From NCBI RefSeq assembly GCF_000276605.1, contig NZ_AKJX01000178.1:1-64000 (forward strand): DNA of 64,000 nt, read 5' to 3'. The position numbers and the translations under genes were made by a program. The notes beneath the pieces were generated by a model. That model had not been told where the DNA came from, ran no database searches, and saw only the letters and a program-made list of their open reading frames with translations. This DNA comes from Acidovorax sp. CF316 (GTDB lineage: Bacteria > Pseudomonadota > Gammaproteobacteria > Burkholderiales > Burkholderiaceae_C). Positions within the stretch are counted from its first letter, which is position 1; each line of letters opens with the position of its first letter. Positions 31,037 through 60,598 of this stretch are shown here, piece by piece.

Positions 31037-31047
31037 ACGGCAGGCCC

Positions 31048-40175: not shown

Positions 40176-40351
40176 CCTGCCTGAATCCAGATCCCCACTC
40201 GCCTTCGCTCCTTTTCACGCAACAAGCGGTCAGTAGATTGGGAACTGGTCTGAGAAGTTTTCCTGGCAACTCAGATTGCAGGTGCAGGACTTAGCCATAC
40301 AAGCAAGTGCCTAGCAGCAACTTTCAGCATCACACACGAAGGCCATACCGC

Positions 40352-41791: not shown

Positions 41792-41855
41792 TGCTTTGGT
41801 CCTCTGTGAGAGTCGGTGGACGGGCCTCGCTTGCCGCAGGCCGCAGCCACCCCTG

Positions 41856-41914
41856 AGGCTACGCAAGACGCCTTCCCAGGTCCCTGCACAGGCGGCAGAT
41901 TCGTTGGCACTTTT
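41856..41914 (-). promoter_or_regulatory. AraC-type activator site and -10, promoter of the aldehyde dehydrogenase gene
   Basis: Minus-strand site with direct-repeat half-sites beginning GTG 21 bases apart (GTGCCAACGAATCTG, then GTGCAGGGAC). The -10 TAGCCT (41856-41861) starts exactly 34 bases after CGAATCTG. It ends 64 bases before ATG 41791. Same arrangement as the two other sites in the window. Confidence 0.8.
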
Positions 41915-46674: not shown

Positions 46675-46725
46675 GGTTCTTTGTCTCCTGCCAGGCTAGG
46701 TTCGGCTGCACAGCAAGGTGCAACC

Positions 46726-47883
46726 TCAGTTCACGAACAAGACGCTCACGGGCGCTGGCGATTCCAGCGCCACGCCGGTATCGGACAAACGCCCCGAGGC
46801 CGCATCGATGCGCATCAGGCTCACGCGATTGCTGCGGTAGTTGGCCACCAGCATCCATTGGCCGGATGGATGAATATCGAAGGCCCACGGGGCTTCGCCC
46901 CCGCTGGGCAGGCGCTGCACGGGCGTGAGCTCGCCAGAGCCGGCATCCACCCGATAGACGAGCAGCTGGCTCTCGCCCCGGTTGCCCACGTAGAGAAAAC
47001 GGCCATCAGGGCTCAGCGCCAGTTCGGAAGCGCTGCGCGTGCCAGCAAATTCCGCACTGGACAAGGCCAGGGTCTGTACGGGCGCCAAACGGCCGGACGA
47101 AGCGTCCCAGCGCAATGCGGTGATCTCAGCCGTCAACTCGCTCAGCACGTAGACGATGCGCCCCGTTGTGCTGAAAACAGCCCGGCGCGGTCCGCTTCCG
47201 GCAGCCGCCTGGAAGGAACGGGGAGCGGCCGCATCGTCGGGCGCCAACACCCGGGTCGAGCGCTCGAAGCCGTAGACGAACACGCGGTCCGCCCCCATGT
47301 CCGCGACCAGGGCGTGACGTCCCGCCGGGTCGATCGCTACGCCATGGGCATGGGGACTGGCTTGGCGGCGGTGCGGCCCCGAACCCGTGGCCTTGATGGT
47401 GCTGACCAAGGCACCTGGCTTGCCATCGGGCAAAAGTGCGATGCTGGAAACCGTACCTGCTGCGAAATTCGCGGCCAGAAGGGTCATGGACGGGGCATCC
47501 AGCCACAGATGCGTGGTACCGGCCCCACCCGCAGCCCCTTCGCCCAACAAGGAGAGTCCCCCGGTGCGGCCGTCCACCGTATAGGCAAGCACACGTCCCT
47601 CGCCCTCTGCCCCCTCTGCCGCCGCGTACAGCACGGGCAGGCGCGGGTGCTTGAGCAGCCACCTGGACTTGCGGGCATCCGCGGGTCGCCCCAGCGGCGC
47701 GAGCGTCCCCGCACAGGCGTCAAAGCGGACCGCCCGGATCCCCACCCCATCCGTCCCCAGGTAGGCCAGTTCGGACGCATTGCAGGGCACCGCTGCAGCG
47801 GCGTTGGCCGCGCCCCAGCACCACAGCAGCGCGAGGCCCAGGCCGCGCCAGGCCGATCCCGATCGTGTGAAATGCCCCAACAT
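46726..47883 (-). CDS. Exported beta-propeller lactonase-family protein
   Basis: The predicted protein has 385 residues from ATG 47883, ten bases after AGGAGA; a GTG at 47904 is an alternative. The leader LGLALLWCWGAANAAAA predicts export. Repeated blades follow the lactonase/YbhE pattern (HPRLPVLYAAAEGAEGEGRV, HAHGVAIDPAGRHALVADMG, SELALSPDGRFLYVGNRGES), including a conserved HAHG. This PF10282-type fold includes 6-phosphogluconolactonase and muconate-cyclase enzymes. It is the first gene after the AraC-type promoter at 47947-48005, hence part of the ring-cleavage regulon. Confidence 0.83.
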   Translation of the reverse strand: MLGHFTRSGSAWRGLGLALLWCWGAANAAAAVPCNASELAYLGTDGVGIRAVRFDACAGTLAPLGRPADARKSRWLLKHPRLPVLYAAAEGAEGEGRVLAYTVDGRTGGLSLLGEGAAGGAGTTHLWLDAPSMTLLAANFAAGTVSSIALLPDGKPGALVSTIKATGSGPHRRQASPHAHGVAIDPAGRHALVADMGADRVFVYGFERSTRVLAPDDAAAPRSFQAAAGSGPRRAVFSTTGRIVYVLSELTAEITALRWDASSGRLAPVQTLALSSAEFAGTRSASELALSPDGRFLYVGNRGESQLLVYRVDAGSGELTPVQRLPSGGEAPWAFDIHPSGQWMLVANYRSNRVSLMRIDAASGRLSDTGVALESPAPVSVLFVN

Positions 47884-47946
47884 GGCCAGCAGGTCTCCTG
47901 TCACTTGTTATGCCCGCCGCACCACATGGCTCCCGACGGTATCTCA

Positions 47947-48005
47947 AGGATAGGGGAGGACCTGCCGCGGGTATCTACACGAAAGGCAGATTCGCTGGCA
48001 CTTTT
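47947..48005 (-). promoter_or_regulatory. AraC-type activator site and -10, promoter of the lactonase operon
   Basis: Half-sites GTGCCAGCGAATCTG and GTGTAGATAC begin 21 bases apart on the minus strand. The -10 TATCCT (47947-47952) starts 34 bases after CGAATCTG. The ATG at 47883 is 64 bases downstream of the -10. Near-identical to the site at 41856-41914 (16 of 19 bases of the core match or better). Confidence 0.82.
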
Positions 48006-48016
48006 CATGCCCTCGG

Positions 48017-48034
48017 GCTTGACGCGGGTCAAGC
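48017..48034. terminator. Hairpin after the AraC gene
   Basis: GCTTGAC-GCGG-GTCAAGC, perfect seven-base arms, lies 73 bases beyond the araC-like stop and directly before the lactonase promoter. No T-tract follows on the minus strand, so it may be a weak terminator or a boundary element. Confidence 0.35.
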
Positions 48035-48106
48035 ATCCGCCCCTTGCAGGCATGCCCCGCGAGTGGGGGAAGGCCATGGCGCCGAGGGTGGTGGCCCTCC
48101 AGCAAG

Positions 48107-49030
48107 CTACATAGCGGGTTGGGTCTGCTCGCGTGCGGCAGTGCGGAACTGGCTGGGAGACTGTCCCACTTCCTTGCGGAAGAAGCGCGTGAAGTACGCA
48201 GTGTCCATGAAGCCCAGCCCATAGGCGATCTGCTCGATCGACATGTCGCCAAAGATCAGGTTGCGCTTGGCCTCGGTGATCAAACGGGCATGGATCAGCT
48301 TGGTGGGACTCAGGCCCGTGGCGGCGACACAGGCCGCACGCAGCTGCGTGGGCGACACCGCCATCTTCGAGGCATAGGTCTGCAGGCGCAGGTTTTCCCG
48401 GTAGTGCTGGTGGACGAGCTCACGGAAGCGGTTGGTCAGGCGGATCGCATTGCGCGTGGCGCCTTCCTTGTCGAGTTGGTCCAGCCGGGTGCTGCGCACC
48501 AGCATCAGCAGCAGCGAGGTCAGCAGGGCCTCCGTCCCCACGACATGACCCAGCGCCATGGATCGGATTTCGTGTTCCAGCCGGCTGACCAGGCCATGGA
48601 CGTCTTCTGGCGCCTCGGGGTTGTGGGTGAGCGGAATCACGCGCGGTTCCGTCCACAGCTGTATGAACTCGGGCAGCTTGGCATTGACCTGGTTCAGGTA
48701 GGTTTCCTCGATGGTCACCACCCAGCGGTCCACATCAATCTCGTACTCCAGGCCGTGCACGCATTCGTTGGGCAGCAGCAGTGCGCACGGGCCTTCGAAA
48801 GGCACACTGCTGCCTTCGAGGTTCATGACGCCGCGCCCGATGCGGACAAAGATCACCTGACCGTAGGCGGGATGGGAGTGGGGGGCCGTACGACGGCGCC
48901 CGCCTTCCGTGACATGGCCGACGTTCACGAACCAGGACTGCGGCTTCTCTGGGCTTTCGACGTACAGGCGCACCTTCGGCACCGGTTCCGGCACGTTCGG
49001 TGGGTACCAATCACGTTGGGACTTGGTCAT
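48107..49030 (-). CDS. AraC/XylS-family transcriptional activator
   Basis: The predicted protein has 307 residues. The N-terminal cupin-like effector domain includes APHSHPAYGQVIFVRIGRGV and FEGPCALLLPNECVHGLEYE. The C-terminal double helix-turn-helix (about 200-300) reads LRLQTYASKMAVSPTQLRAA, HARLITEAKRNLIFGDMSIE and IAYGLGFMDTAYFTRFFRKE, the AraC signature. It lies between the ring-cleavage operon and the lactonase operon. All three promoters of the region carry matched sites with AraC-type direct repeats, so this protein is the probable activator. Its own upstream region lacks the site. Confidence 0.9.
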   Translation of the reverse strand: MTKSQRDWYPPNVPEPVPKVRLYVESPEKPQSWFVNVGHVTEGGRRRTAPHSHPAYGQVIFVRIGRGVMNLEGSSVPFEGPCALLLPNECVHGLEYEIDVDRWVVTIEETYLNQVNAKLPEFIQLWTEPRVIPLTHNPEAPEDVHGLVSRLEHEIRSMALGHVVGTEALLTSLLLMLVRSTRLDQLDKEGATRNAIRLTNRFRELVHQHYRENLRLQTYASKMAVSPTQLRAACVAATGLSPTKLIHARLITEAKRNLIFGDMSIEQIAYGLGFMDTAYFTRFFRKEVGQSPSQFRTAAREQTQPAM

Positions 49031-49261
49031 CGAGAGCTGCTCATTGGATGGAATGCGCCGGGCCTACGGCAACAGGACAAACCGCTCAGGCCCTCAGGCC
49101 ACGTGGCCCAGCACCGCAAGCGGGCTGCATGGCAGGGTGTTGGAGAAGAACGCAGAAGACGCCGCGCATAGCAATGGTGCACGCGTTGTAAAGATGCTCG
49201 GCCAGGGCTGCCCCCCTGGCAAGCGGGTAATCCCGGGCGACAGCCACCCGGGAGCCTCTTC

Positions 49262-50398
49262 TCAGTAGCGCAGGCGTCCCTTGGCATCGATCACCGCAAT
49301 GTTGACGAACTGGCTGCCGGCATTGCCCTTGCCAAAATTGAGCCGATAGCCATCCACCGCGATTTCCCCCATGGTCTGCAAGGCCTTGGCCAAGGCGCCG
49401 GGCGTGATGTCACCACGGATGCGGCGCAGCCCCTCGACCGCAACGCGCGTCGAGACATAGCCTTCGAACTGGGCCGGCGTATATGCATCCAGCTCCGGGA
49501 AGGCGGCCTTCATCGCCGCCTGAAATTCGCGCACGCCCGTTTTGCTGTTCGGATCGGGGTAGATCTGCACGATGCCGACGCCGCGGGCCGCCTCGTGCCC
49601 CGCGGTCCGGATCAGAAACTCCGGCGACATGTCGGCCGCCAGGAAGATGGTCTGGCCCACGCCGGCTTTACGCAACTGCGCTACGGACGACGCGGCGAAC
49701 GGCGGAGCACCCAGCACCAATACGCCGTCTGCGCCGAGTCCGAAAGTCTCCCGCGCTCCACTGGCCAGATTTTCCGAGGCCACGGCAACGCCTTTGACCT
49801 CTATGCCGCCGATCCGCGCCGCTTCTCGGACAACGTCTTCCAGCCCGGCAACCCCCACGGGGTTGTTCTGGTACAGCACTGCCAGCTTGCGCATGCTCAA
49901 AGCGCGTGCATGCAAGACGATCTTGCTCAACTTCTGCAGGTCACTTGCACGCACATGGAACAGCCTGGCATGCCCAGGATTGCGAAAGGCATCCGACCCA
50001 GGTACGACATTCATGACCACGAGGTCGTACCTGTCGAGCAACTTGTCACCCAGCATCTTCTGAACCGCCCCCGACCCCCAGGGCGAGATCAGAGCCACGG
50101 GCTTGCGCTGCATGGCGGTATCGAACTGGTCCGCAAAGACCGCCGGAGACAGCGTGTCATCCAGTTCAAACCAGGCAATCCTGCGCCCAGCCACCCCGCC
50201 AGAACGGTTGACATGGGCCACTGCGGCCCTTGCGCCCTGGCTGATCTGCCGGGCATCCGGCACGGGAACGCCCGTGAACGGCCCGATCTGAGCCAGCACA
50301 ATGTCCTGGGCCAGGGCGGGGGTTCCCAGCACCACCCATGCCATCAGGCACCGTTCCAACCACCTGACGATGGGGCCAGGCCCCGCGGGATTGTTCAT
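49262..50398 (-). CDS. LivK-like periplasmic binding protein
   Basis: The predicted protein has 378 residues. Signal peptide MAWVVLGTPALAQ precedes DIVLAQIGPFTGVPVPDARQ, and the type I binding fold follows (LDRYDLVVMNVVPGSDAFRN, PVGVAGLEDVVREAARIGGI). No matching Liv permease or ATPase genes lie beside it, so it either works with a transporter elsewhere or senses an aromatic ligand. It is the last gene of the long catabolic operon (64 bases after the second Pht5-like gene). Confidence 0.85.
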   Translation of the reverse strand: MNNPAGPGPIVRWLERCLMAWVVLGTPALAQDIVLAQIGPFTGVPVPDARQISQGARAAVAHVNRSGGVAGRRIAWFELDDTLSPAVFADQFDTAMQRKPVALISPWGSGAVQKMLGDKLLDRYDLVVMNVVPGSDAFRNPGHARLFHVRASDLQKLSKIVLHARALSMRKLAVLYQNNPVGVAGLEDVVREAARIGGIEVKGVAVASENLASGARETFGLGADGVLVLGAPPFAASSVAQLRKAGVGQTIFLAADMSPEFLIRTAGHEAARGVGIVQIYPDPNSKTGVREFQAAMKAAFPELDAYTPAQFEGYVSTRVAVEGLRRIRGDITPGALAKALQTMGEIAVDGYRLNFGKGNAGSQFVNIAVIDAKGRLRY

Positions 50399-50462
50399 GG
50401 CATCTCCACGGCCTGGTGCCGCTGGTTATCGGGCAATCACAGTCTGGGCGAGCGGACTTGCA

Positions 50463-51356
50463 TCAGCCCAGTGCGCCGGTGACATCGTCGAACAGCTCGT
50501 CGACGCTCAGACGGTGCGGGATGATCTTCTGGTCCAGCGCCCAGTCGATCGCCAGCTGCAGGCCCTTGCGGTTGGCCTCGAGCCCGACCGGCGGGAACAC
50601 CGCCGGCACGCCTTCGGCCAGTGCACGGCTTTCGACCACCATGCGATAGAGCTCGCGAACGATGTCCGGCCGCTTCTTCGAGAGGTCTGCATGCACCACG
50701 AACATGTGGTTGATCGGCACGATCCCCACGCGCTCGTACCAGGTCCTGGCTGCGGCCTGCGCATCTGGCACCAAGGTGCGCACGCGGGGATCCTTGGGCA
50801 TGTCCTCGCCGAGCAGCGCCGCCGTCAACTGGCCGGCCATCATCATGTCCGGGATCGAGGAGCCGGCAGGCAGGCGCTGGCAGTTTTCTGGGTCCTTGTA
50901 CTCGGCCAGATGTCCATCCCCCAGGGTCATCCAGGTCACCTTGTCGAGGTCGACGCCGCACTCGTGGCGCAGGACGCCCCGGATCCACAGCGCGGTGGTC
51001 TGCGTGTAGGTGCGCACGCCCACCTTCTTGCCTTCGATGTCTTTGGGGCGAATGTCGCCAAACTCGATGTTGAAGCCAGCGCAGTGGTGCTGGAAGCGCC
51101 CGGAAATCGGCACCGGCAGCATCACATAGGGCTTGCCATAGGCCTTGGCTTGCAGAAAGGTGACGATGGCGAGCTCGCCTGCATCGAACTTGCTTTCGCG
51201 CACCATGGCCTTGAAGCCGTTGTGCGCCGGAGTCGGGCCGCAGTAGTCGAGGTGGACGATGTCGGTCTTCACGCGTCCATCCTTCATCGCTTTGGTGACG
51301 GCGTAGTCGGCCAGGTTCGTGCGCAGCGTCGGCACCGTGGTGTCGGTCGTGGTCAT
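50463..51356 (-). CDS. 4,5-Dihydroxyphthalate decarboxylase-like protein 2
   Basis: The predicted protein has 297 residues from ATG 51356, shorter than typical Pht5 (about 330). It has FDAGELAIVTFLQAKAYGKP, the GKKVGVRTYTQTTALWIRGV loop, and a tail LEANRKGLQLAIDWALDQ. These match the Pht5/PBP2-type fold, which contains both decarboxylases and ABC-type binding proteins. It has no signal peptide, so a cytoplasmic enzyme is favoured. It is a distant paralogue of the protein at 57733-58701; the two genes bracket the catabolic operon. Confidence 0.72.
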   Translation of the reverse strand: MTTTDTTVPTLRTNLADYAVTKAMKDGRVKTDIVHLDYCGPTPAHNGFKAMVRESKFDAGELAIVTFLQAKAYGKPYVMLPVPISGRFQHHCAGFNIEFGDIRPKDIEGKKVGVRTYTQTTALWIRGVLRHECGVDLDKVTWMTLGDGHLAEYKDPENCQRLPAGSSIPDMMMAGQLTAALLGEDMPKDPRVRTLVPDAQAAARTWYERVGIVPINHMFVVHADLSKKRPDIVRELYRMVVESRALAEGVPAVFPPVGLEANRKGLQLAIDWALDQKIIPHRLSVDELFDDVTGALG

Positions 51357-51382
51357 GTGGTGTCTCTTCCGGATGGAGATGT

Positions 51383-52927
51383 TTACAGCCTGACTTCGAT
51401 CAGGCAGGGACCGGGCTCGCGGGTGGAATTCACCATGGCCTGGTAGAAGCTTTCTGCGGTCTCGACCGCCACCGCCGGCACGCCCATGCTCTTGGCCATG
51501 GCGAGCCAGTCGATGCGGGGCCGGTCGATGTCGATCATCGACAGCGCACGGGCGCCAGGCGTACCCGCCCCCATGTTGGCGTACTCGGCCTTCAGGATCG
51601 CGTAGCTGTTGTTCGCAAAGATGATGGTGGTCACGTTCAGGCCCTCGCGCGCCTGCGTCCACAGCGATTGGATCGTGTACATCGCGCTGCCGTCACCCAC
51701 CATGCAGAACACGCGCCGCTCAGGGCAGGCGAGTGCCGCACCGGTGGCCACTGGTGTCGCATAGCCGATGGATCCACCCATGTTGTTGATCAGGTCGTGG
51801 GGGCGGGCGCCCATCGTCAGGCCCATGGACTCCCGGCCGGTGGTCAGCGACTCGTCCACCAGGATGCAGTGCTCGGGTAATGCCGCCGCCAGCGCATGCG
51901 CCACGCTGGTGGGGTTGAGCGCGCCCGAAGGCACCGACGTCTCCAAGCGGGGCTGCAGCAGCGCCTCGGTGCCCGTCGCGCCCAGGGCTTCGAGCAGCAT
52001 GTCGAATGCCAGTTCGCTGTCCTCATCGGCCTCCACCAAGGGATGAACCGCGGTGCCTTCGGCCTTCAGCAGGCTGGGCCTGTCCGGATAGGCGAAGAAA
52101 GCCACGGGCTCCCGCGTTTCCACCGTGATGAGGTGCTTGAAGCCCTGGAGAAAAGCCTGCGCCTGCGGCACGGCATACGGGATGCGCTCGATCGGCACCC
52201 GCCCAGCCCCGCGTTCGATGCGGGCCGTGAAGAATTGCGAACCCAGGCGGGCGCCGGTGGCAGCCGCAATCTGGCCGGCGCGCTGCAGCGCCATCCCACG
52301 GGTGGCCGTGTTGGCCAGGATGATCAACGCAGGCTCCCCTGAGCGCAGCACCCGGGCCACATGCGCGATGCGCGCCGCATCGGGCAGCTTGCGCCGGGGC
52401 GCGGCCGGCTTGGGCAGCACCGGCGTGCCCGCTTCCTGCCACGATGTGTCGCCTGGAAGGATCAGCGTGGCGATCTGGCCCGGGTGCTCGGACGCCCTGG
52501 CCACCGCCTGCGCGGCGTCCCACGCAATGGCATTGGCCGAGTCGGCACGCCGCACCCAATGGCTCAGAGGCCGGGCCAGGCCTTCGATGTCCGAGGTCAG
52601 CGGTGGGTCGTACTTCAGGTGCGAAGTGGAGTGCTCGCCGATGATGTTGACCATGCCCGACGAGGCACGCTTGGCGTTGTGGATGTTGGCCAATCCGTTG
52701 GCTAGGCCCGGCCCCAGGTGCAGCAAGGTGGACGCGGGTGTTCCCTTCATCCGGTACCAGCCATCGGCTGCACCCGTGGCAACCCCCTCGAACAGGCACA
52801 GCACGCTGCGCATCTTCGGGTTTTCCAGCGCCGCCAGAAAGTGCATTTCCGACGTGCCAGGATTGGCAAAACAGATATCGACGCCCTGGTCCACCAGGGT
52901 CGCGACGAGGCTTTCAGCTCCGTTCAT
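51383..52927 (-). CDS. Thiamine diphosphate-dependent decarboxylase/acetolactate synthase-family enzyme
   Basis: The predicted protein has 514 residues. The ThDP-activating Glu47 (LFEGVATGAADG) and the cofactor motif GDG (411-413) ... N440 (VGDGSAMYTIQSLW, IIFANN) are in place, with the three-domain fold of the acetolactate synthase/benzoylformate decarboxylase family. It therefore can act on 2-oxo acids. It lies 4 bases downstream of the aldolase gene, so it likely handles the 2-oxo acid or oxo-diacid released by ring cleavage, but carboligation is also possible. The precise reaction is unknown. Confidence 0.85.
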   Translation of the reverse strand: MNGAESLVATLVDQGVDICFANPGTSEMHFLAALENPKMRSVLCLFEGVATGAADGWYRMKGTPASTLLHLGPGLANGLANIHNAKRASSGMVNIIGEHSTSHLKYDPPLTSDIEGLARPLSHWVRRADSANAIAWDAAQAVARASEHPGQIATLILPGDTSWQEAGTPVLPKPAAPRRKLPDAARIAHVARVLRSGEPALIILANTATRGMALQRAGQIAAATGARLGSQFFTARIERGAGRVPIERIPYAVPQAQAFLQGFKHLITVETREPVAFFAYPDRPSLLKAEGTAVHPLVEADEDSELAFDMLLEALGATGTEALLQPRLETSVPSGALNPTSVAHALAAALPEHCILVDESLTTGRESMGLTMGARPHDLINNMGGSIGYATPVATGAALACPERRVFCMVGDGSAMYTIQSLWTQAREGLNVTTIIFANNSYAILKAEYANMGAGTPGARALSMIDIDRPRIDWLAMAKSMGVPAVAVETAESFYQAMVNSTREPGPCLIEVRL

Positions 52928-52931
52928 GGCA

Positions 52932-53789
52932 TCAATACGAAGTGGCAGCCTGCTGGGCCAGGCCCACGACGCCGTAGCTCTTTGTCGGTGCGGCCATCAG
53001 AAAGCGGTAGCCTTCGTCCAGCAATTTCTTGTGGTTCTTGGCCGTTACATGCGGGTTGCCAACGACCACCTTGTGCCTGTGGCAGGTTTCGACGATGCGG
53101 CGCATCGCGTCCTGCACCTCGGGGTGCTCGTACTGGCGCGGGAAACCCAGGGCCTGGCTGAGGTCGCCTTCTCCGATCAAGATGAAGCCGATGCCGGGCA
53201 CGTTGGACAGGATGTCGTCGAGGTTCTCTACGGCCTCGGGGCTTTCGCACATCAGGCCCACGAGGAGTTCGCCCTCTGGCGCCAGGGGCCAGACGTCGGC
53301 TTTCTGGTAGTAGTCGGCCATGGACAGTCCCCAGTAGCGCGACGCATTGGCCGGACCGTCACCGCGCACGCCCTTGGGCTCGTACAGCGGCGCGCCCTTG
53401 GGACGTGCGTAACGGCACGATGCCACGGCGTTGTAGGCCTGCTCGACGGTGGACACATGCGGCCAGATGACGCCATAGCAACCGCGGTCCAGAACCTGCT
53501 TGGCAAAGCTCTGGTTCATCTCCACACCGTTGGCCGGTATGCGGGCCAACGGCGTCACCCTGGGTGCGACCGATCCGCTCTCGGCGATCTGCTTGCGGTT
53601 GAGCATGTACTGCAAGGCGTCGCCCAAGGCCGACACGTCGTAGGGGTTGTGCTCCATCTCGTAGACGACGCCGTCGTAGGGAGAATCGGCAAACTCGGCA
53701 GCGCTGAACTTGTCGAGCTTGGAGAAGGCCGTGAAGGCAGGCTTGCCGGCCTCGAAGGCCTTGATGATGCTGTTCAGACGTTGTGTCAT
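52932..53789 (-). CDS. HpcH/HpaI-family class II aldolase
   Basis: The predicted protein has 285 residues from ATG 53789 behind GAGGAAG. Active-site residues of the pyruvate aldolases are present: Glu46-His47 (VVYEMEHNPYD), Arg77 (APRVTP), metal ligands Glu182 (CESPE) and Asp209 (IGEGDLSQALG). Such enzymes cleave 4-hydroxy-2-oxo acids to pyruvate and an aldehyde or oxo acid. The gene overlaps the dioxygenase gene by four bases. In this operon it could cleave the hydrated product of LigJ (4-carboxy-4-hydroxy-2-oxoadipate), replacing the RraA-type LigK; this is inference. Confidence 0.87.
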   Translation of the reverse strand: MTQRLNSIIKAFEAGKPAFTAFSKLDKFSAAEFADSPYDGVVYEMEHNPYDVSALGDALQYMLNRKQIAESGSVAPRVTPLARIPANGVEMNQSFAKQVLDRGCYGVIWPHVSTVEQAYNAVASCRYARPKGAPLYEPKGVRGDGPANASRYWGLSMADYYQKADVWPLAPEGELLVGLMCESPEAVENLDDILSNVPGIGFILIGEGDLSQALGFPRQYEHPEVQDAMRRIVETCHRHKVVVGNPHVTAKNHKKLLDEGYRFLMAAPTKSYGVVGLAQQAATSY

Positions 53790-54793
53790 TTCTTTGCTTC
53801 CTCGGGGTTCCAATACATGAAGCCCATGCCTTCGCCGGTACCGGCAGCGGTGCGCCAGCAGGGCACGTAGTCGACTAACGTCATCTGCGCACCCGTGTGC
53901 TGCAGCGCTTTCATGACGGTCGAATAGATCTTGATTTCCGAAGTGCCGGACTGGAACCAGCCATCCGGTATGGCCGACAGGCCCTCGTAGTCGTAGCCAG
54001 CCAGCTTCTGGAGGATGTCCTGGTCGAACTCCTCGTCGTTGACGAAGTGCGAGAGCCCGCCCGAAGCGATGACTGCCACGCGCACGTCTTCGGGCCAGGC
54101 CTCGATGGCATTGCGCAGCACATCACCGAACTCGATGCAGCGCGCCATCGACGGCTGCGTCGGCGGGTAGAAAAGATTCATCAGCACCGGCACATGCGGC
54201 GGCGGGTTGTCGCCCATGATCTGGTGGTAGACGAAGCTGTAGGCATGGGGCACGACGGGGTAGTCGGCCTTTTGCTTCATCTGCTTTTCCATCCAGACGT
54301 TCTCGGGCCAGTCCTCCAGGTCGCACATGTCGAAGCCCTGGGCCTGGAAGGCCTTGAGCAGGTAGGCAGCCAGCTCGGGGTGGCACTGGTGCACGACATG
54401 GTGATCGGGCGCGTACACCTTGCGCTGCGGCGGCCCGTTGTGCACTTCCTTGCCGCTGTAGATGGCGATGGAAGGCGAGAGCTGCGGAAAGATTTCCTTT
54501 TGGTCCTTGCCGAGAATGATGGCCACATCGATATTGGCGCGCTGGTAGGCAGCGGCCATCACATCGAGAGCCGCGCGGCAGCGGCCGGCGCGGGCCGTGC
54601 GTTCCTCGATCGTGAGGTACTGCTCGAAGGCCTTGCCGCGATGGGCCTCCAGTTCCGGATAGGTCCAGGTTCGGTTGCGGAACCACAGTTCCGGGTTGTT
54701 GAAGTCGCGCTCGGCGTTGTGGAGCCATTCCTCGGGCTTCTGGCCCAGCATGCCGCTGTGTGGAACCGCCATCCCGAAAACGATTTTTGCCAT
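53786..54793 (-). CDS. LigB-type class III extradiol dioxygenase, alone
   Basis: The predicted protein has 335 residues, longer than LigB (302). It matches LigB in order: iron ligand His12 (VPHSGMLG), the strand NIDVAIILGKDQKEIFPQLS, His183 (VPHAYSF), His249 (SGGLSHF) and Glu286 (SGTSEIKIYSTVM). At the position of LigB His61 (NDH), an iron ligand, this protein has Gln98 (KDQ). No LigA-type alpha subunit gene is present. Extradiol enzymes open catechol-type rings with O2; the substrate here is probably a carboxylated or trihydroxylated ring given LigJ and the Pht5-like proteins. The altered ligand makes catalytic details uncertain. Confidence 0.8.
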   Translation of the reverse strand: MAKIVFGMAVPHSGMLGQKPEEWLHNAERDFNNPELWFRNRTWTYPELEAHRGKAFEQYLTIEERTARAGRCRAALDVMAAAYQRANIDVAIILGKDQKEIFPQLSPSIAIYSGKEVHNGPPQRKVYAPDHHVVHQCHPELAAYLLKAFQAQGFDMCDLEDWPENVWMEKQMKQKADYPVVPHAYSFVYHQIMGDNPPPHVPVLMNLFYPPTQPSMARCIEFGDVLRNAIEAWPEDVRVAVIASGGLSHFVNDEEFDQDILQKLAGYDYEGLSAIPDGWFQSGTSEIKIYSTVMKALQHTGAQMTLVDYVPCWRTAAGTGEGMGFMYWNPEEAKK

Positions 54794-54832
54794 GGGTCTC
54801 TACCAATTCTGTTTGTTAAATGGAGGCGAGCA

Positions 54833-55813
54833 TCAATTGACGACCACACCGGCCTTGGTGACGATCTGACGCCAGACAGGGATCTCACGCTTGATCTGCG
54901 CAGCAAACTCCTCAGGCGTGGAAGTGCCCGGCTCGATGCCTAGCTCGAGCATCCTCTTGGCGATCTCGGGGTCCTTGACGAGCTTGGCAACCTCGGAGTT
55001 GAAGCGCAGGATGATGTCCTTGGGCGTGCCCTTTGGCGCCAGCAAGCCGAACCACACGTCGACGCTGAAACCAGGCACGCCTTGTTCCGCCACGGTGCGC
55101 AGCTCGGGAAGGAACATAGAGCGCTTGCTGCCGGCATAGGCCAACATCTGCAGGCGGCCCTGCTTGACCAGTGGCAGGACGGCGGTGGGACCGGCAAAGG
55201 CCATGGAGACCTGGCCGCCGGCCACATCGTTCAGCGCCGAAGGGCCGCCCTTGTAGGGGACATGCACGACATCCACACCGGCCAGCAGATTGAATTGCGA
55301 CAGTGCCAGATGGCCGGTGGACGCATTGCCGGAGCTGGCGGCGTTGAGCTCGCCCTTGCGGCTCTTCGCCAGGGCGATCAGTTCGGGCAGCGTCTTGGCC
55401 GGCAGCTTGGGACTCGTCACCAGCACCAGCGAGTTCTGGCCGATGTTGATGATGGGCTCGAAGTCGTTGACCGGGTCGTAGCGGACCTTGGACACCACCG
55501 GGTTGATGGTGAAGGGGGCGTTGGACGCCAGCAGCAGCGTGTAGCCGTCCGGTTTGGCCCGGGAGACGGCTTCGGTGCCAATGCTCTGGCCGGCGCCGTT
55601 GCGATTCTCGATGACGATGGGTTGCCCCAGGGCTGCACTGAGCCTGGGCGAAATCAGCCGCATGAAGGCATCGTGCGTGGCCGCCGCCTGCACCGGCACG
55701 ATCACCGTGATGGGACGCGCGGGGTAGGTTTGGGCCTGCGCCATCACGCTCCAGGCGAGCAGCCCGGTCACCAGAGCCCTGGCAGCGGTTCTTGAAAGAT
55801 GGATCAATTGCAT
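54833..55813 (-). CDS. Tripartite tricarboxylate transporter receptor (Bug family)
   Basis: The predicted protein has 326 residues. Signal LVTGLLAWSVMAQAQ is followed by YPARPITVIVPVQAAATHDA, NRNGAGQSIGTEAVSRAKPD, HVPYKGGPSALNDVAGG and the usual tail. It is embedded in the ring-cleavage operon between the amidohydrolase and dioxygenase genes, so the ligand is probably the aromatic acid substrate. The third Bug gene of the window; no TctA/TctB permease genes are seen. Confidence 0.92.
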   Translation of the reverse strand: MQLIHLSRTAARALVTGLLAWSVMAQAQTYPARPITVIVPVQAAATHDAFMRLISPRLSAALGQPIVIENRNGAGQSIGTEAVSRAKPDGYTLLLASNAPFTINPVVSKVRYDPVNDFEPIINIGQNSLVLVTSPKLPAKTLPELIALAKSRKGELNAASSGNASTGHLALSQFNLLAGVDVVHVPYKGGPSALNDVAGGQVSMAFAGPTAVLPLVKQGRLQMLAYAGSKRSMFLPELRTVAEQGVPGFSVDVWFGLLAPKGTPKDIILRFNSEVAKLVKDPEIAKRMLELGIEPGTSTPEEFAAQIKREIPVWRQIVTKAGVVVN

Positions 55814-55833
55814 GGTGTGGACGCTGTGAGGCT

Positions 55834-56679
55834 TCAGGCGAGCGCGGGATACAGATGTTGCGCCGTCTTGCCAAAGATCCAGTCGCGGTCTTGCGCGCTC
55901 AGGCTGGCGAGGCCGGTCTGGGCCGTGGCCAGGATCTCCGCCAACGTACCAGGCGAGGTGGGGAAGTTCGATCCCCAGGCCATGCGCTGCGCACCGAAGG
56001 CCTCGACCACGCGCGGGAAGAAGGTCTCGGCGCTGGCCTTGTCCTTTTGCACGTCGCCGAAGATGCGCGGCGTGAGTTTCATGTAGAGATTGGGCAGGTC
56101 GGCCAGGTCGAACAGGCTTTGCGCACTCTGGTAGGGCGGGCCATCGAGCACGTCCGGTCTTCCGAGGTGGTCAAGGATGATGGCCACGTTCTGGAATTTC
56201 TCGGCCAGCATGCGCACCTGCGGCAGGCCGATGGGGCCGGTCTGGATGCACATCGGCAAACCCAGTTCGGCGCACATCTCCCAGGCCTTGAAGCTCTTCG
56301 GGTTGTCCAGCTCGCTGGGGTCAAAGTCTTTGGTCGAACCGCCGGTGAAAATGCGCAGGCCAGCCAGGCCCCTGTCGGCCCAGCCCTTGATCACGGCGGG
56401 CACGTCGTCGGCCAGCATGTCCACCGAACCCACGGCCACCAGCCGGTCCTTGTGCTGGTTGCAGCCATCGACGACATAGCTGTTGTCGAAGCCGTAGGTG
56501 GTCGAGGAGTGCACGACCGCCGCCTTCGCGACGCCCGCTTCGTCCATCGCTGCGATCAGCGATTCGACGGTGCTGGGCCGCTCCTGGGACCAGTCCGAGC
56601 GCTTGCCGAACAGCGGCGCTGGCGGGTAACGCTTCTCGTCGTCCGAGATGATGTGGGGATGGATGTCGATGATGTTCAT
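55834..56679 (-). CDS. Amidohydrolase-2 family, LigI-related
   Basis: The predicted protein has 281 residues from ATG 56679 behind GGAG. Metal-binding HxH His7/His9 (NIIDIHPHII), a TIM-barrel pattern (SLIAAMDEAGVAKAAVVHSS), ILDHLGRPD and the terminal AWGSNFP place it in amidohydrolase_2, which includes the 2-pyrone-4,6-dicarboxylate lactonase LigI and related decarboxylases. It lies 14 bases after ligJ. A role as a hydrolase of a pyrone-type dead-end or a decarboxylase of the aromatic acid is inferred. Confidence 0.82.
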   Translation of the reverse strand: MNIIDIHPHIISDDEKRYPPAPLFGKRSDWSQERPSTVESLIAAMDEAGVAKAAVVHSSTTYGFDNSYVVDGCNQHKDRLVAVGSVDMLADDVPAVIKGWADRGLAGLRIFTGGSTKDFDPSELDNPKSFKAWEMCAELGLPMCIQTGPIGLPQVRMLAEKFQNVAIILDHLGRPDVLDGPPYQSAQSLFDLADLPNLYMKLTPRIFGDVQKDKASAETFFPRVVEAFGAQRMAWGSNFPTSPGTLAEILATAQTGLASLSAQDRDWIFGKTAQHLYPALA

Positions 56680-56693
56680 GGGTACTCCGTCCG

Positions 56694-57719
56694 TCACAGG
56701 CCCTTGGCCTTCAGGTGCTTGTCCAGGCGCGGGTAGATGCGGCGCGCATTGCCTTCAAAGATGGCGTGTCGATCCGCCTCCGATAGCGCTTCGCACTGGT
56801 CGATGTAGCGCTTGGTGTCGTCAAAGTAGTTGCCGGTATCGGGATCGCGGCCACGCACCGCCCCGATCATCTCGGAGCCAAAGAGCACGTTCTTGGTCGG
56901 AATCACCTTGGTCAGCAGTTCGACGCCCGGGTGGTGGTAAACGCAGGTGTCGAAGAAGACGTTGTCCAGCAGCCCTTCCAGCGGGCGCTTGGCGATTTCC
57001 AGCGACATGCCGCGGTAACGGCCCCAGTGATAGGGCACTGCGCCGCCGCCGTGCGGGATCACCAGGCGCAGCTGCGGGAAATCCTTGAACACCTCGCCCT
57101 GCAGCAACTGCATGAACACCGAGGTATCGGCATTCAGGTAGTGCGCCCCCGTTCCATGGTGGCAGGCATTGCAGGAGGCTGCGACGTGGATCATCGCGGG
57201 CACGTCCAGTTCGCACAGCGCCTCGTACACCGGGTACCAGCTCTTGTCGGTCATCGGCAGGCCTGTCCAGTGCCCGCCGCTGGGGTCGGGATTGAGGTTC
57301 ACGCCGACGAAGCCCAGTTCATTGACGATGCGCTTCAACTCCGGGATGGAGTTCTTCGGAGGCGCCAGAGGCGACTGAGGCAGCATGCCCACAGGAACGA
57401 AGTTGTCCGGATAGAGGTCGCAGACACGCCGCACCAGGTCGTTGGAGATGCGGGCCCACTCCAGGCTGGTGCGCTCATTTCCCAGGTGGTGGCTCATCAG
57501 GCCGGCAATGGGCGAGAACAGCGTGATGTCGCTGCCACGCTCCTGTTGCAGCTTGAGCTGGCCATTGCCGACGCCTTCGCGGATTTCATCGTCGGATACA
57601 TGGGCACCCGACAGCGGAGGTGCGTTGCCAGGATCGTTGGCGGCAGCCACTTGGGCGGCACGCCAGTCGCGAAAGGAAGCAGGGACGGTCGTGAAATGAC
57701 CGTGGCAATCGATGATCAT
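56694..57719 (-). CDS. ligJ: 4-Oxalomesaconate hydratase, LigJ type
   Basis: The predicted protein has 341 residues. It follows Sphingobium LigJ almost motif for motif: IIDCHGHFTTVPASFRDWRA, QERGSDITLFSP, GFVGVNLNPDPSGGHWTGLP, GAHYLNADTSVFMQ, VIPHGGGAVPYHWGRYRG and FGSEMIGAVRGRDP. Zinc ligands His6, His8, His178, His223 and Glu283 are conserved. LigJ hydrates 4-oxalomesaconate to 4-carboxy-4-hydroxy-2-oxoadipate in the protocatechuate 4,5-cleavage and gallate pathways. It is the second gene of the operon, after the Pht5-like gene (13-base gap), and is the strongest single clue to the pathway. Confidence 0.93.
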   Translation of the reverse strand: MIIDCHGHFTTVPASFRDWRAAQVAAANDPGNAPPLSGAHVSDDEIREGVGNGQLKLQQERGSDITLFSPIAGLMSHHLGNERTSLEWARISNDLVRRVCDLYPDNFVPVGMLPQSPLAPPKNSIPELKRIVNELGFVGVNLNPDPSGGHWTGLPMTDKSWYPVYEALCELDVPAMIHVAASCNACHHGTGAHYLNADTSVFMQLLQGEVFKDFPQLRLVIPHGGGAVPYHWGRYRGMSLEIAKRPLEGLLDNVFFDTCVYHHPGVELLTKVIPTKNVLFGSEMIGAVRGRDPDTGNYFDDTKRYIDQCEALSEADRHAIFEGNARRIYPRLDKHLKAKGL

Positions 57720-57732
57720 GGGAGATTCCGGT

Positions 57733-58701
57733 TCAGGCTTTGGGGTCCACGAACAACTCGTGCATGGACATGCGGCGCGGGGTCAGGCCTTGCTTGAAAG
57801 CGGTTTGCTCCAGGGCCTCGATGGTCTTGCGGTTTTCCTCGATGCCATAGGGCAGCGGGTCGTGGCCGACGATCTTGCGCAACTCCAGGTACTTCTTGTC
57901 CGTCGCGCTGTTCGCCTCGCCAGCGTCCAGCCGCGCCAGGTAGTCCTGCTTTGCCTTGTCGAAGGCGTCGTAGAGCGACTTGGCGACCCAGGGGTGTTCG
58001 GCCAGCACCGAGTCCTTGACGACGATGGTGCCGTGCATCGGGTAGATGCCCGTGCGAGCGTAGTACTCGGCTTCGAGCTCGGCGGCATTGGGCAGCAGGT
58101 CGGGGTAATTCGCCTCGACCTCCTGCCAGCCGCCCGTGGGGTTGCCTGTGCGACCTATGCCGGCGGCGCCGTCGAAGCCCGCCACCAATTCACCGTCCGC
58201 CATCATCTCCGCCAAAGGGCGTGTGGCATGAACCACGTTGGACGGCAGCTTGAGTTGCGTTACATGCTCTTCATCGTCGACTACCCAAGTGACCTTGTCG
58301 TTGTCCAGGCCGAATTCTTCGATCAGAACCTGCCGTGTCCAGACACCCGTGGTGACCGAGTAGGCGCGCACACCCACCTTCTTGCCTTCAAGGTCCTTGG
58401 CGGTCTGGATACCGGCATCCGGGCGCACCAGCAGGCCTGCGTGGTGAAAGCGACGCACCACAAAGATGGGCAGTGCGACAAACGGTGCCCCGTATGCGCG
58501 GGCGATGATGTAAGTGGTGGGGGCAATCTCGCAGACATCGAATTCGACGTCACGGACCATGCGGCGGAAGGCGCCTATCTGCGGCTTGACGGTGATGATT
58601 TCGGCATCCACCCCCTCGATGGGAATGCTGCCGTTGCGAATCGCCGACGTGTGCGGATGCTCCGCAATGGCGATCTTGAGATGGACTTTTTTGCTGGACA
58701 A
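57733..58701 (-). CDS. 4,5-Dihydroxyphthalate decarboxylase-like protein 1
   Basis: The predicted protein has 322 residues from TTG 58701, which has AAGGAG at seven bases; the only upstream ATG is poorly placed. It resembles Pht5 along its length: FDVCEIAPTTYIIARAYGAP, FHHAGLLVRPDAGIQTAKDL, GKKVGVRAYSVTTGVWTRQV, YYARTGIYPMHGTIVV and PYGIEENRKTIEALEQTAFK. Pht5 removes one carboxylate from 4,5-dihydroxyphthalate to give protocatechuate. The fold is also used by substrate-binding proteins, so the activity is not certain. No signal peptide is seen. It is the first gene of the catabolic operon, directly after the AraC-type promoter at 58789-58847. Confidence 0.78.
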   Translation of the reverse strand: MSSKKVHLKIAIAEHPHTSAIRNGSIPIEGVDAEIITVKPQIGAFRRMVRDVEFDVCEIAPTTYIIARAYGAPFVALPIFVVRRFHHAGLLVRPDAGIQTAKDLEGKKVGVRAYSVTTGVWTRQVLIEEFGLDNDKVTWVVDDEEHVTQLKLPSNVVHATRPLAEMMADGELVAGFDGAAGIGRTGNPTGGWQEVEANYPDLLPNAAELEAEYYARTGIYPMHGTIVVKDSVLAEHPWVAKSLYDAFDKAKQDYLARLDAGEANSATDKKYLELRKIVGHDPLPYGIEENRKTIEALEQTAFKQGLTPRRMSMHELFVDPKA

Positions 58702-58788
58702 CGTGCGTCTCCTTGAACTTTCCTGTTGGTGCCTGCGCAGCAGGCTCCACCGCCTTGGGGCATGTGGAACCATGCTCTGACAGACTGA

Positions 58789-58847
58789 AGGTTAGGGTCC
58801 GCTCGCCGATGCGCACATCTACAAAAATCAGATTCGCTTGTACTTTC
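58789..58847 (-). promoter_or_regulatory. AraC-type activator site and -10, promoter of the ring-cleavage operon
   Basis: Half-sites GTACAAGCGAATCTG and GTAGATGTGC begin 21 bases apart on the minus strand; -10 TAACCT (58789-58794) starts 34 bases after CGAATCTG. It lies 88 bases before the TTG start. Also 69 bases upstream of the divergent MFS gene, which it may influence. A CCGGTG-AATC-CACCGG inverted repeat adjoins it at 58847-58862. Confidence 0.8.
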
Positions 58848-58915
58848 CGGTGAATCCACCGGCAACGGATCCCGGCGCTGAAAAAATGACCGCGCTGCGT
58901 CCTAGACTCCGGCGC

Positions 58916-60202
58916 ATGAACGCTTTCACGACCCCTTCCACGGGCAGCGCGCAACTGCGCGAGCAACACGATTACCTGCGCCTTCTGGGCGCCCGCGTGA
59001 CGGGTGGGGCCGCCAACCAGATGCTGATGGTGGCGCTGGGCTGGCAGATGTATGACCTGACAGGCAGTGCCTGGGACCTGGGCCTGGTCGGGCTTGCGCA
59101 GTTCCTTCCGGCACTGCTGCTGACCCTGCCCGCCGGGCATCTGGTCGACCAGCACGATCGTCGCCTGCTGCTTGCAGGCAGCTTGGGCCTGCAATGCGCG
59201 GTTGCACTGTGCCTGGCCCTGTCCTGCTTCCACGGGTGGATTGGTTCCCACATGATTCTGGTGCTGTCCATCGCGCTGGGCGCCGCACGGGCGCTGCAGA
59301 TGCCTTCGCAGCAGGCCTTGCTTCCGTCACTGGTACCCACGGCCCTGCTGCCGCGCGCAGTCGCTGCGGCCAGCTCATCGATGCAGGCCGCCGTGATCGC
59401 CGGACCGGCCCTGGGCGGCGTCCTCTATGCGCTGGGCCCCCAGGTCTCGCAGTTGGGACAGCCGGTGGCCCAGGCTGGCGCCAACTGGGGCGCTGCGCTG
59501 GTCTATGCGGTTTCGTTGGCCTTGCTGCTCATCGCGGTGAGCGCCGTGCTGGCGATCCGGCACCGGCCGCTGGAGCGGGTGCGCCGAGCCCCTGGATTGG
59601 CCCAGCTGACCGCTGGCATCCACTTCATCTGGCAGCGCCCCGTGGTCCTGGGTGCCATCTCCCTGGACCTGTTCGCCGTGCTCCTGGGAGGCGCCACCGC
59701 GCTCCTGCCGATCTTCGCGCGCGACATCCTGCACACCGGGCCTGAAGGGCTCGGGATGTTGCGCTCCGCGCCCGCGCTGGGTGCGGTGATCGTGGGCCTG
59801 GGCCTCGCGCGCATGCCAATCAATCGGCGGGTGGGCCGCGCCCTGCTCAGCGCCGTGGCGCTGTTCGGCTGCTCGATGATCGCCTTCGCGTTGACGGCCT
59901 CGTTTTGGGTGGCCTTTGCAGCACTGGCCGTCAGCGGCGCAGCAGACATGGTCAGCGTGGTGATCCGCCAGTCCCTGGTGCAGCTGGAAACCCCGGACGA
60001 GATGCGCGGCCGCGTGGGCGCCGTGAACTCGGTGTTCATCGGCGCCAGCAACCAGCTGGGTGAGTTCGAATCGGGAAGCACCGCCGCCCTGCTGGGGCCC
60101 GTCGGCTCCGTCCTTCTGGGAGGGGTAGGCACCCTTGCCATCGTGTTGCTCTGGACCCGGCTGTTTCCCGCGCTGGCACAGCGCGATCGCTTGCAGTCCT
60201 GA
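58916..60202 (+). CDS. MFS transporter, EntS-like
   Basis: The predicted protein has 428 residues from ATG 58916; the upstream Met at 58886 lacks a ribosome site. Twelve membrane segments with the MFS loop motif GHLVDQHDRRLLL after helix 2 (between helices 2 and 3), and the enterobactin exporter-like pattern GARVTGGAANQMLMVALGWQ and TPDEMRGRVGAVNSVFIGAS, place it in the EntS-like MFS exporter group. It is divergent from the catabolic operon, with the AraC-type site and an inverted repeat in the shared 214-base region. An exporter for a toxic intermediate or unrelated compound is possible. Confidence 0.85.
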   Translation: MNAFTTPSTGSAQLREQHDYLRLLGARVTGGAANQMLMVALGWQMYDLTGSAWDLGLVGLAQFLPALLLTLPAGHLVDQHDRRLLLAGSLGLQCAVALCLALSCFHGWIGSHMILVLSIALGAARALQMPSQQALLPSLVPTALLPRAVAAASSSMQAAVIAGPALGGVLYALGPQVSQLGQPVAQAGANWGAALVYAVSLALLLIAVSAVLAIRHRPLERVRRAPGLAQLTAGIHFIWQRPVVLGAISLDLFAVLLGGATALLPIFARDILHTGPEGLGMLRSAPALGAVIVGLGLARMPINRRVGRALLSAVALFGCSMIAFALTASFWVAFAALAVSGAADMVSVVIRQSLVQLETPDEMRGRVGAVNSVFIGASNQLGEFESGSTAALLGPVGSVLLGGVGTLAIVLLWTRLFPALAQRDRLQS

Positions 60203-60598
60203 GGGCAGGCAGCCACTGGGAACGGGCTTGGGACAGATGGCAGTGTCCCGGCCCCATCAGCGACGGTGCAACGCCGGCAGGCGAGATTCCGTGCCACGCA
60301 AGCAGCCAGGGCGCCAAGCACTTCCCCCTTCATCGGCCCGCGTCCCTCCCGCTCCCTCGGGCCCGCGCCTTGCCGGGTGGTCAGCGCCGTGCCCGACACC
60401 CATCCCGACAAGGTCTTTGCGCGACCTCAGAGGCCGAAACAGGCTCTGCGCGCAGGATGCATTGCCTGAGCACCCTGCAACGGGGCGCGCGGGGCCGGAG
60501 GCAGTCCCGGCGCAAAAGGGTTCGGCAGAGCCGAGCGGGCCACAGGAGGAGGTCGAAGAATGGAGGCTGGGCGCGCGATGGACGCCCAGGTCCCGGGG
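60203..60598. other. Intergenic region between convergent MFS and RND genes
   Basis: There is no credible gene. A small hairpin GGGACA-GATGGCAG-TGTCCC (60230-60249) lies 28 bases after the MFS stop. The rest is GC-rich sequence with no recognised element; longer frames here are shadows of the RND gene. Confidence 0.45.

Follow-up and report, generated by a model that had tools for sequence, protein, structure and literature searches.

A conserved operon with a LigZ-like extradiol dioxygenase and a variant LigJ, a candidate meta-cleavage pathway for gallate- or tannin-type compounds

We analyzed a 64,000-nucleotide stretch of Acidovorax sp. CF316 (RefSeq contig NZ_AKJX01000178.1, here C178, positions 1 to 64,000; hereafter the window), in which eight genes at 50463 to 58701 form an operon that combines a LigZ-like class III extradiol dioxygenase with a variant of the hydratase LigJ, a pyruvate aldolase and two relatives of the decarboxylase Pht5. 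The core arrangement recurs in alpha- and betaproteobacteria, among them bacteria associated with soil and plants, and genomes that carry it usually carry a gallate dioxygenase as well. We consider it about an even bet (probability roughly 0.5) that the operon encodes an aerobic route dedicated to the meta-cleavage of a carboxylated compound of the gallate or tannin type that is hydroxylated from the start.

Gene content of the operon

Families were assigned by comparison with Pfam, NCBIfam and Protein Data Bank (PDB) sequences. The eight genes, listed here in the direction of reading, were as follows.

57733 to 58701, minus strand: Pht5-like protein A (SBPA), TTG start, a relative of 4,5-dihydroxyphthalate decarboxylase in a family resembling substrate-binding proteins; predicted cytoplasmic decarboxylase
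56694 to 57719, minus strand: LigJ-type hydratase, Ile71 and Gly73 variant (2gwg, E 7e-147; LigY, E 2e-57)
55834 to 56697, minus strand: Amidohydrolase_2 protein (AH2), lactonase-like, a remote relative of LigI and of 4-sulfomuconolactone hydrolase (PF04909, 112.8 bits)
54833 to 55813, minus strand: Bug/TctC periplasmic receptor (PF03401, 221 bits)
53786 to 54793, minus strand: LigZ-like class III extradiol dioxygenase, predicted ring-cleaving (PF02900, 45.5 bits)
52932 to about 53789, minus strand: HpcH/HpaI-type class II pyruvate aldolase (PF03328, 75 bits)
51383 to 52927, minus strand: thiamine diphosphate (ThDP)-dependent enzyme, NCBIfam PRK07586, 'acetolactate synthase large subunit' (NF005760, 737 bits, above the cut-off)
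50463 to 51356, minus strand: Pht5-like protein B (SBPB), a second decarboxylase-like protein, translated from ATG (9jp7, E 2.8e-19)

The genes run head to tail from 58701 to 50463, separated by 4 to 39 bases or overlapping by 4 bases, in the order Pht5-like A, LigJ, AH2, Bug receptor, LigB-type dioxygenase, HpcH, ThDP enzyme and Pht5-like B, all on the minus strand, as a first-pass annotation made from the letters alone had read them. The TTG start of Pht5-like A is the one annotated in its orthologue in Acidovorax DW039; for AH2 an alternative ATG is possible at 56679.

The same annotation had noted that the operon lacks a ring hydroxylase, LigA, LigC and LigK, and we likewise identified none of these among its genes with Pfam and NCBIfam. 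There was also no RraA/LigK-type match on contig C178, and the genes identified at 44761 to 63999 include neither a phthalate dioxygenase nor a cis-diol dehydrogenase. With LigA, LigC, LigK and these two phthalate enzymes absent, the gene set fits neither the protocatechuate 4,5 operon nor the phthalate one, in agreement with the earlier proposal. It is apparently undescribed, as had been supposed: no such operon is named among the open-access titles listed, a scope outside which most subscription journals lie.

Conservation and distribution

Genomes were scanned with seven aligned sequences closely related to the LigB protein as the query. This returned 95 relatives, and 80 loci of 74 to 98% identity were retained, including members of Comamonadaceae, Sphaerotilaceae, Oxalobacteraceae, Burkholderiaceae, the sphingomonads, Caulobacter and Nitrospirillum. 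Five plasmid loci were added from a search in which the best 20 of 76 records were inspected, these being 5 of the 7 records with at least 60% identity. The resulting 85 loci each extend up to 10 kb on either side of LigB, many of them less; identity cut-offs for the gene counts were set by us, and contig ends cut some loci.

LigB was present in all 85 loci, followed by a transporter of the major facilitator superfamily (MFS) in 78, HpcH in 75, AH2 in 74, Pht5-like B in 70, Pht5-like A in 68, LigJ in 65, the ThDP enzyme in 56, an AraC-family regulator in 43, a TolB-like protein in 42, a lactonase-family protein in 40 and the Bug receptor in 2. In 77 loci coverage was adequate, with LigB flanked on either side by some 5 kb or more; all six core genes were found in 62 of them, 49 of which also have the ThDP gene. 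Because the order and strand of the six core genes are unchanged in 60 of the 77, from alpha- and betaproteobacteria, the arrangement is far beyond chance.

Around this core the unit varies. In the window the Bug receptor occupies the slot that an MFS gene usually fills in relatives, and in many relatives the unit reaches further, taking in the AraC regulator, the lactonase-family protein and the TolB-like protein. Some Burkholderiaceae have the set divided into a part with LigB, MFS, TolB, AraC and lactonase genes and a remainder. One group of aldehyde dehydrogenases occurs in 25 of the 85 loci. Genes related to one or other of two TonB-dependent receptors are found in 19 of the 27 alphaproteobacterial loci and in 1 of the remaining 58.

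The alphaproteobacterial members of the LigB tree are nested among betaproteobacterial ones, which points to transfer between lineages. One locus (L081), from a record titled Pantoea sp. 18069, has all six core genes and a LigB that clusters with that of Diaphorobacter (99/88), reflecting either a recent transfer or a mislabelled or mixed assembly.

A LigZ-like dioxygenase

The LigB-type protein scores 45.5 bits against PF02900, above the cut-off of 26.3. Among NCBIfam profiles it comes nearest to gallate and protocatechuate dioxygenases and to a 'putative dioxygenase' group, all of them weak matches. The best structural match of its AlphaFold model (mean predicted local distance difference test score 89.8) is the gallate enzyme DesB (Z 29.8, root-mean-square deviation 2.3 over 253 residues), followed by LigAB (Z 28.9). 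All 32 members aligned have His12, Gln98, His249 and Glu286; we take His12, His249 and Glu286 to be metal-binding or catalytic residues, and Gln98, which characterizes this branch, presumably sits where LigB has its second His ligand. The idea that this Gln marks a degenerate Fe site and a broken dioxygenase was dropped, as Gln98 is found in all 32 members, including those associated with LigY.

Distant relatives of the protein are about 29 to 41% identical to it. In the LigB tree the window's clade forms one group (100/100) that joins three of these relatives, L019, L021 and L024, at 99/97, with long branches flagged; proteins of genomes G325, G294 and G143 and of Bradyrhizobium fall outside the clade and this group. 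L019 and L021 directly adjoin LigY-like genes, and L024 has one about 6 kb away; the Bradyrhizobium protein, outside the group, also adjoins a LigY-like gene. In L019, from Polymorphobacter (39% identity), the adjoining amidohydrolase scores 545 bits against LigY and 197 against LigJ. This neighbor alone was compared directly with LigY; the other LigY-like proteins are 44 to 71% identical to it and 32 to 36% identical to the LigJ of the pmd pathway. In the gene numbering given in passages of PMC12997858, ligY and ligZ of strain SYK-6 are SLG_07750 and SLG_07720. Because ligY and ligZ are thus close in SYK-6 and the neighbor of L019 is LigY-like, the L019 protein was taken to be LigZ and served in the tree in place of SYK-6 LigZ. 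With L019 as this proxy and with the long branches noted, the tree suggests that the operon's dioxygenase belongs near LigZ among the class III extradiol dioxygenases.

This placement bears on the earlier description of the enzyme as a lone LigB without LigA. The operon indeed has no LigA, and none is annotated beside relatives of the LigB-type protein in three records, but the absence is less telling if the enzyme is, as the tree suggests, of the LigZ kind.

One of the distant relatives lies in a cluster of genome G325 (L025, 7231 to 12911) in which a LigXa_C-type Rieske oxygenase, a reductase, the LigB-type protein (36% identity), a LigJ with Arg71 and an HpcH follow in a row, HpcH being present instead of LigK. 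The Acidovorax genome itself has seven LigB-domain matches; at C26 one of them lies close to an RraA aldolase and a LigJ other than that of the operon.

The LigJ partner is a variant

The hydratase of the operon is clearly of the LigJ family, scoring 492 bits against LigJ and 198 against LigY, and the family residues His6, His8, His178, His193, His223, Arg234 and Glu283 are kept in 78 of 78 sequences. It departs from the family at position 71, which follows Ser-Pro. This residue is Arg in all three other LigJs compared (from C26 of this genome, G325 and Sinorhizobium) and in all three LigY-like proteins, and a fourth LigY-like protein has it too. By contrast, all 72 module LigJs, including those from modules without LigB, have Ile at position 71 and Gly at 73. 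Twenty alignment columns separate the three other LigJs from the four LigY-like proteins; 18 module LigJs uniformly resemble LigJ at 12 of these and uniformly resemble LigY at none, the remaining 8 being mixed or different. Together with the bit scores, this led us to reject the possibility that the protein is a disguised LigY.

We infer that Arg71 binds a carboxylate of the substrate in enzymes for oxalomesaconate-type compounds and that the module LigJ takes something else. The first-pass annotation had read LigJ as a sign of a 4-oxalomesaconate-type intermediate; the family assignment behind that reading stands, but the reading is weakened by the loss of the Arg. Because an otherwise conserved Arg is replaced in all module LigJs examined, the substrate may be an analogue of 4-oxalomesaconate.

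The other enzymes

Pht5-like A matches the solved 4,5-dihydroxyphthalate decarboxylase 9jp7 at E 1.4e-42 and Pht5-like B, which is 30% identical to A, at E 2.8e-19, so that the earlier name 'Pht5-like' was right at the level of the family. Two plasmid genes that carry the annotation 4,5-dihydroxyphthalate decarboxylase share 31 to 32% identity with Pht5-like A. Because no signal peptide was seen by eye in either protein, a role as cytoplasmic enzymes fits both better than the automatic name 'substrate-binding protein'.

The amidohydrolase had been called LigI-like, which overstates the kinship: its match to LigI (E 6.6e-6, 28.7 bits) falls short of LigI-level similarity, and its score of 49 bits against NF042924 is far below the cut-off. 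An HxH motif, an Asp, a His and Asn244 are invariant in 84 of 84 AH2 sequences, and Asn244 presumably stands at the place of the catalytic Asp248 of LigI. In alignments at this position 2ffi has Asp, and the LigI entry 4dia itself has Asn, probably as an engineered mutant. We therefore withhold the name LigI because the similarity is remote, the Asn being no more than a remark.

In HpcH, the residues His55, Arg91, Glu190 and Asp217 (numbered from an upstream TTG at 53813) are invariant in 82 of 82 sequences, and we take them to be the catalytic residues of an HpcH/HpaI aldolase.

Association with gallate dioxygenase and tannase

A link to gallate chemistry had been suggested from the letters, and the neighborhood and the strong co-occurrence across genomes bear it out. 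On the same contig, just past the end of the window, are a tannase of subtype B (368 bits), roughly 13 kb from the operon, and a gallate dioxygenase (789 bits, C178:73485-74759), roughly 15 kb from it. This stretch (C178:71737-74759, plus strand; L022 7737-10759) holds the tannase and, directly after it, the gallate dioxygenase, which has a fused LigA domain, and is followed by a porin gene; genes for a tripartite ATP-independent periplasmic (TRAP) transporter come just before the tannase. In Acidovorax DW039 a subtype B tannase and a gallate dioxygenase are on the operon plasmid, 13 and 46 kb off, and in Acidovorax soli both are on contig 20, taken from its number to be the operon contig.

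We scored a gallate dioxygenase as an NF009904 match above the cut-off in 49 of 50 operon genomes selected from the 80 retained loci, with taxon groups assigned by us from record titles. Thirty-eight of the 49 have one: 29 of 31 Burkholderiales, 9 of 17 alphaproteobacteria and 0 of 1 labelled Pantoea. In an order-wide sample the enzyme occurs in 14 of 300 genomes, the 14 including both the Acidovorax genome and another, G255, in which the LigB of the operon is present too. Within the genus of G255, a gallate dioxygenase is present in 31 of 33 LigB-positive genomes versus 50 of 84 others (Fisher p 1.4e-4), while a gentisate 1,2-dioxygenase control showed no link (13/33 versus 37/84, p 0.68). 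The broad tannase family was found in 33/33 versus 74/84 genomes (107/117 in all, p 0.06). The genomes are related and species are not independent samples, which makes these p-values optimistic.

Proposed pathway and alternatives

We propose a sequence of reactions from the gene set, its families and conserved residues, the LigZ-like kinship of the dioxygenase, the variant LigJ and the gallate dioxygenase link; the order of steps, the substrate and the reactions themselves are predictions. Because the set has no hydroxylase, the substrate should arrive with vicinal hydroxyls. It would be taken up through the Bug receptor or an MFS transporter, and in sphingomonads through TonB receptors. A lactone, if there is one, would be opened by the lactonase-family protein, AH2 or both, and the ring by the LigZ-like dioxygenase; both Pht5-like proteins would remove ring or side carboxylates. 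The variant LigJ would then hydrate the product, and HpcH would cleave it by an aldol reaction to pyruvate and an oxo-acid. The ThDP enzyme, joined in some genomes by an aldehyde dehydrogenase encoded nearby, would deal with a C-C or aldehyde by-product.

Several observations weigh against a pathway dedicated to gallate- or tannin-type compounds. When only single-chain NF009904 forms are counted the link within the genus is weaker (18/33 versus 23/84, p 0.009), and with split forms only it disappears (13/33 versus 27/84, p 0.52); the NF009904 hits that score around 440 bits correspond to split beta-subunit forms and may include protocatechuate enzymes. A gallate dioxygenase above the cut-off is present in just over half of the alphaproteobacterial operon genomes, and in 0 of the 85 loci within the span covered around LigB. 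Subtype B tannase was dropped as a genome-wide marker, occurring in 4 of the 49 operon genomes, and the broad tannase family proved uninformative, being near-universal in the genus tested. Finally, the module occurs without LigB, which shows that most steps are independent of the LigB-type dioxygenase.

These copies without LigB are the basis of the best-placed alternative, in which the six genes serve as a lower pathway of general use, acting on a polycarboxylated dienoate or lactone supplied by varied upstream enzymes, with LigB as an interchangeable entry and a gallate link that is ecological only. Paraburkholderia largidicola has both a LigB operon and, on the same plasmid (L129, AP028202.1), a separate copy without LigB that includes the ThDP gene. 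Paracoccus methylovorus and P. denitrificans (L123, L125) have most of the module, together with other genes and with no LigB match in about 23 kb. The locus of Caballeronia grimmiae (L124), again with no LigB match, has Pht5-like A and B, LigJ, HpcH and a VOC-family protein, its AH2 match being 25% identical only; VOC-family and fumarylacetoacetate-hydrolase-type proteins lie near the module there, and another entry reaction may feed the same lower pathway. Since such copies occur, the module is, on gene content, a unit of its own, with the dioxygenase as one possible entry. Nevertheless, LigB is embedded in the module in 60 of the 77 covered loci of the window's clade, and the gentisate control shows no general enrichment of aromatic degraders. 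We regard this general role as possible, with the odds against it.

The boldest candidate substrate for a dedicated pathway is ellagic acid. The LigZ-like character of the dioxygenase points to a bulky or biaryl carboxylate, the link with gallate to the tannin series and the lactonase-type genes to a lactone, and ellagic acid fits all of these hints as well as the vicinal hydroxyls. Lactonases would convert it to hexahydroxydiphenate (HHDP), and the LigZ-like enzyme would cut one of its rings beside the biaryl bond; C-C hydrolysis would then give 3,4,5-trihydroxyphthalate, which a Pht5-like protein would decarboxylate to gallate for a separate gallate dioxygenase to continue. Pht5 decarboxylates 4,5-dihydroxyphthalate, and by chemical reasoning its 3-hydroxy analogue, 3,4,5-trihydroxyphthalate, would yield gallate. 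OH-DDVA is a biaryl dicarboxylate of the 5,5'-dehydrodivanillate (DDVA) pathway, and DdvT and DdvK are the uptake system of that pathway. Consistent with a biaryl substrate, LigZ, the nearest characterized kind, is listed as an OH-DDVA oxygenase, and the TonB receptor and MFS genes of sphingomonads resemble the DdvT/DdvK pair (function and names as they appear in passages of PMC12997858). Lactonase-type genes, a tannase and a gallate dioxygenase also lie nearby, and the last co-occurs with the operon. Yet a LigY-type C-C hydrolase is not evident in the operon, whose LigJ is so much closer to LigJ than to LigY; no aerobic bacterial ellagic acid pathway for comparison appears among the open-access titles listed; and the module without LigB would be left unexplained. 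Ellagic acid or HHDP catabolism is thus a tentative proposal that we judge unlikely. In its fullest form, an aerobic pathway for the ellagitannin core in which LigZ-like cleavage of hexahydroxydiphenate and Pht5-like decarboxylation to gallate are joined to a new LigJ subtype that acts on an intermediate other than oxalomesaconate, and which was spread by transfer across soil and plant alpha- and betaproteobacteria, it is more speculative still.

Another possible substrate, also doubtful, is a monoaromatic gallate-like acid, such as a trihydroxyphthalate or methylgallate, that the LigB-type enzyme would cleave to a pyrone or oxalomesaconate analogue, with AH2, LigJ and HpcH acting as LigI, LigJ and a substitute for LigK. 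The three enzymes parallel both LigI-LigJ-LigK and the end of the lumichrome (riboflavin) lower pathway, in which, as described in passages of PMC12746152, extradiol cleavage gives a pyrone that goes through hydrolysis, hydration and retro-aldol cleavage. The distant cluster L025 groups a Rieske oxygenase, LigB, LigJ and HpcH, and DesB as the best structural match of the predicted dioxygenase model would also suit such a substrate. On the other hand, 38 of the 49 operon genomes already own a gallate dioxygenase; AH2 is remotely LigI-like, with Asn at the place of the catalytic Asp of LigI (as in the probably engineered 4dia, 2ffi having Asp); and Ile71 in LigJ disfavors plain oxalomesaconate. 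Two decarboxylases would also remain unexplained unless the substrate bears extra carboxyls.

The operon shares families with the protocatechuate 4,5 and phthalate 4,5 pathways, but it is very improbable that it is just an ordinary variant of either, given the lack of LigA, LigC, LigK and a ring hydroxylase among the operon genes, the presence elsewhere in this genome, at C26, of another LigJ together with an RraA aldolase and a LigB homologue, and the low identity (31 to 32%) of Pht5-like A to annotated 4,5-dihydroxyphthalate decarboxylases.

Flanking genes

Our annotation of the window covers the part rightward of 25.8 kb and two genes further left. The genes next to the operon were as follows.

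44761 to 46674, minus strand: TolB-like WD40/PD40 propeller, with a twin-arginine (Tat)-like leader by eye (PF07676; 42/85 loci)
46726 to 47904, minus strand: 7-bladed lactonase-family protein, with a leader-like N-terminus by eye (PF10282, 282 bits; 40/85 loci)
48107 to 49030, minus strand: AraC-family regulator, HpaA-like (TIGR02297, 146 bits, below the cut-off; 43/85 loci)
49262 to 50398, minus strand: Peripla_BP_6 substrate-binding protein, solitary and accessory (in just 1/85 relatives)
58838 to 60202, plus strand: divergent MFS transporter (PF05977/PF07690; relatives in 13/85 loci)
60599 to 62998, minus strand: MMPL transporter of a DUF1302/DUF1329/YCF48/MMPL cassette (PF03176; 9/85 loci)
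62995 to 63999, minus strand: YCF48-type protein of the same cassette (PF14870)

The AraC-family regulator possibly controls the operon, and both beta-propeller proteins, the lactonase-family and the TolB-like one, are apparently exported. The DUF1329 and DUF1302 members of the MMPL cassette lie just past the window end (locus L022, 277 to 3356, minus strand), and parts of the cassette flank 9 to 11 of the 85 relatives. Further catabolic-looking genes occupy 25818 to 41866 on the minus strand: a tannase/feruloyl-esterase family protein, an AMP-ligase, a CoA-transferase, a Bug receptor, a porin, genes for a branched-chain-type ABC transporter and an aldehyde dehydrogenase that, among NCBIfam families, scores highest against alpha-ketoglutaric semialdehyde dehydrogenase (504 bits, short of the cut-off).

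Relation to known pathways

One close parallel is the LigZ/LigY DDVA pathway of Sphingobium SYK-6, which shares with the operon a LigZ-like dioxygenase, a partner of the LigJ/LigY family, a decarboxylase and, near the sphingomonad relatives, MFS and TonB genes. Unlike that pathway, the operon has a LigJ-type partner and Pht5-like rather than LigW decarboxylases, adds HpcH and the ThDP enzyme and has no LigX demethylase. With the protocatechuate 4,5 (lig/pmd) and gallate (gal/des) pathways it has in common the succession of extradiol dioxygenase, hydratase and aldolase, the LigJ family and a DesB-like fold; it differs from them in a LigB of another branch, the lack of LigA and LigC, HpcH in place of the RraA aldolase, the variant LigJ and the two Pht5-like proteins. 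The phthalate 4,5 (pht) pathway shares the Pht5 family (9jp7), whereas the operon is without phthalate dioxygenase and cis-diol dehydrogenase and has two Pht5-like genes.

Two further systems were considered as identities. The lumichrome pathway, which differs in organism and upstream steps and is likened here by reaction sequence rather than enzyme families, was kept as an analogy only. The fde operon for naringenin and other flavonoids, considered because of the ThDP and dioxygenase genes, also serves ring cleavage of a plant polyphenol; it was set aside, since a protein 66% identical to FdeC is described, in passages of PMC11069340, as a putative glyoxalase and is not of the LigB type.

Few plant polyphenols are as common as the tannins, and the open-access titles listed include no aerobic bacterial pathway that deals with the biaryl (ellagic) portion of these compounds. 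An operon that is conserved in dozens of species and is a usual companion of gallate dioxygenase provides a concrete gene set for testing, and its variant LigJ, LigZ-like dioxygenase and paired Pht5-like proteins could reveal reactions useful for the conversion of lignin and tannin.

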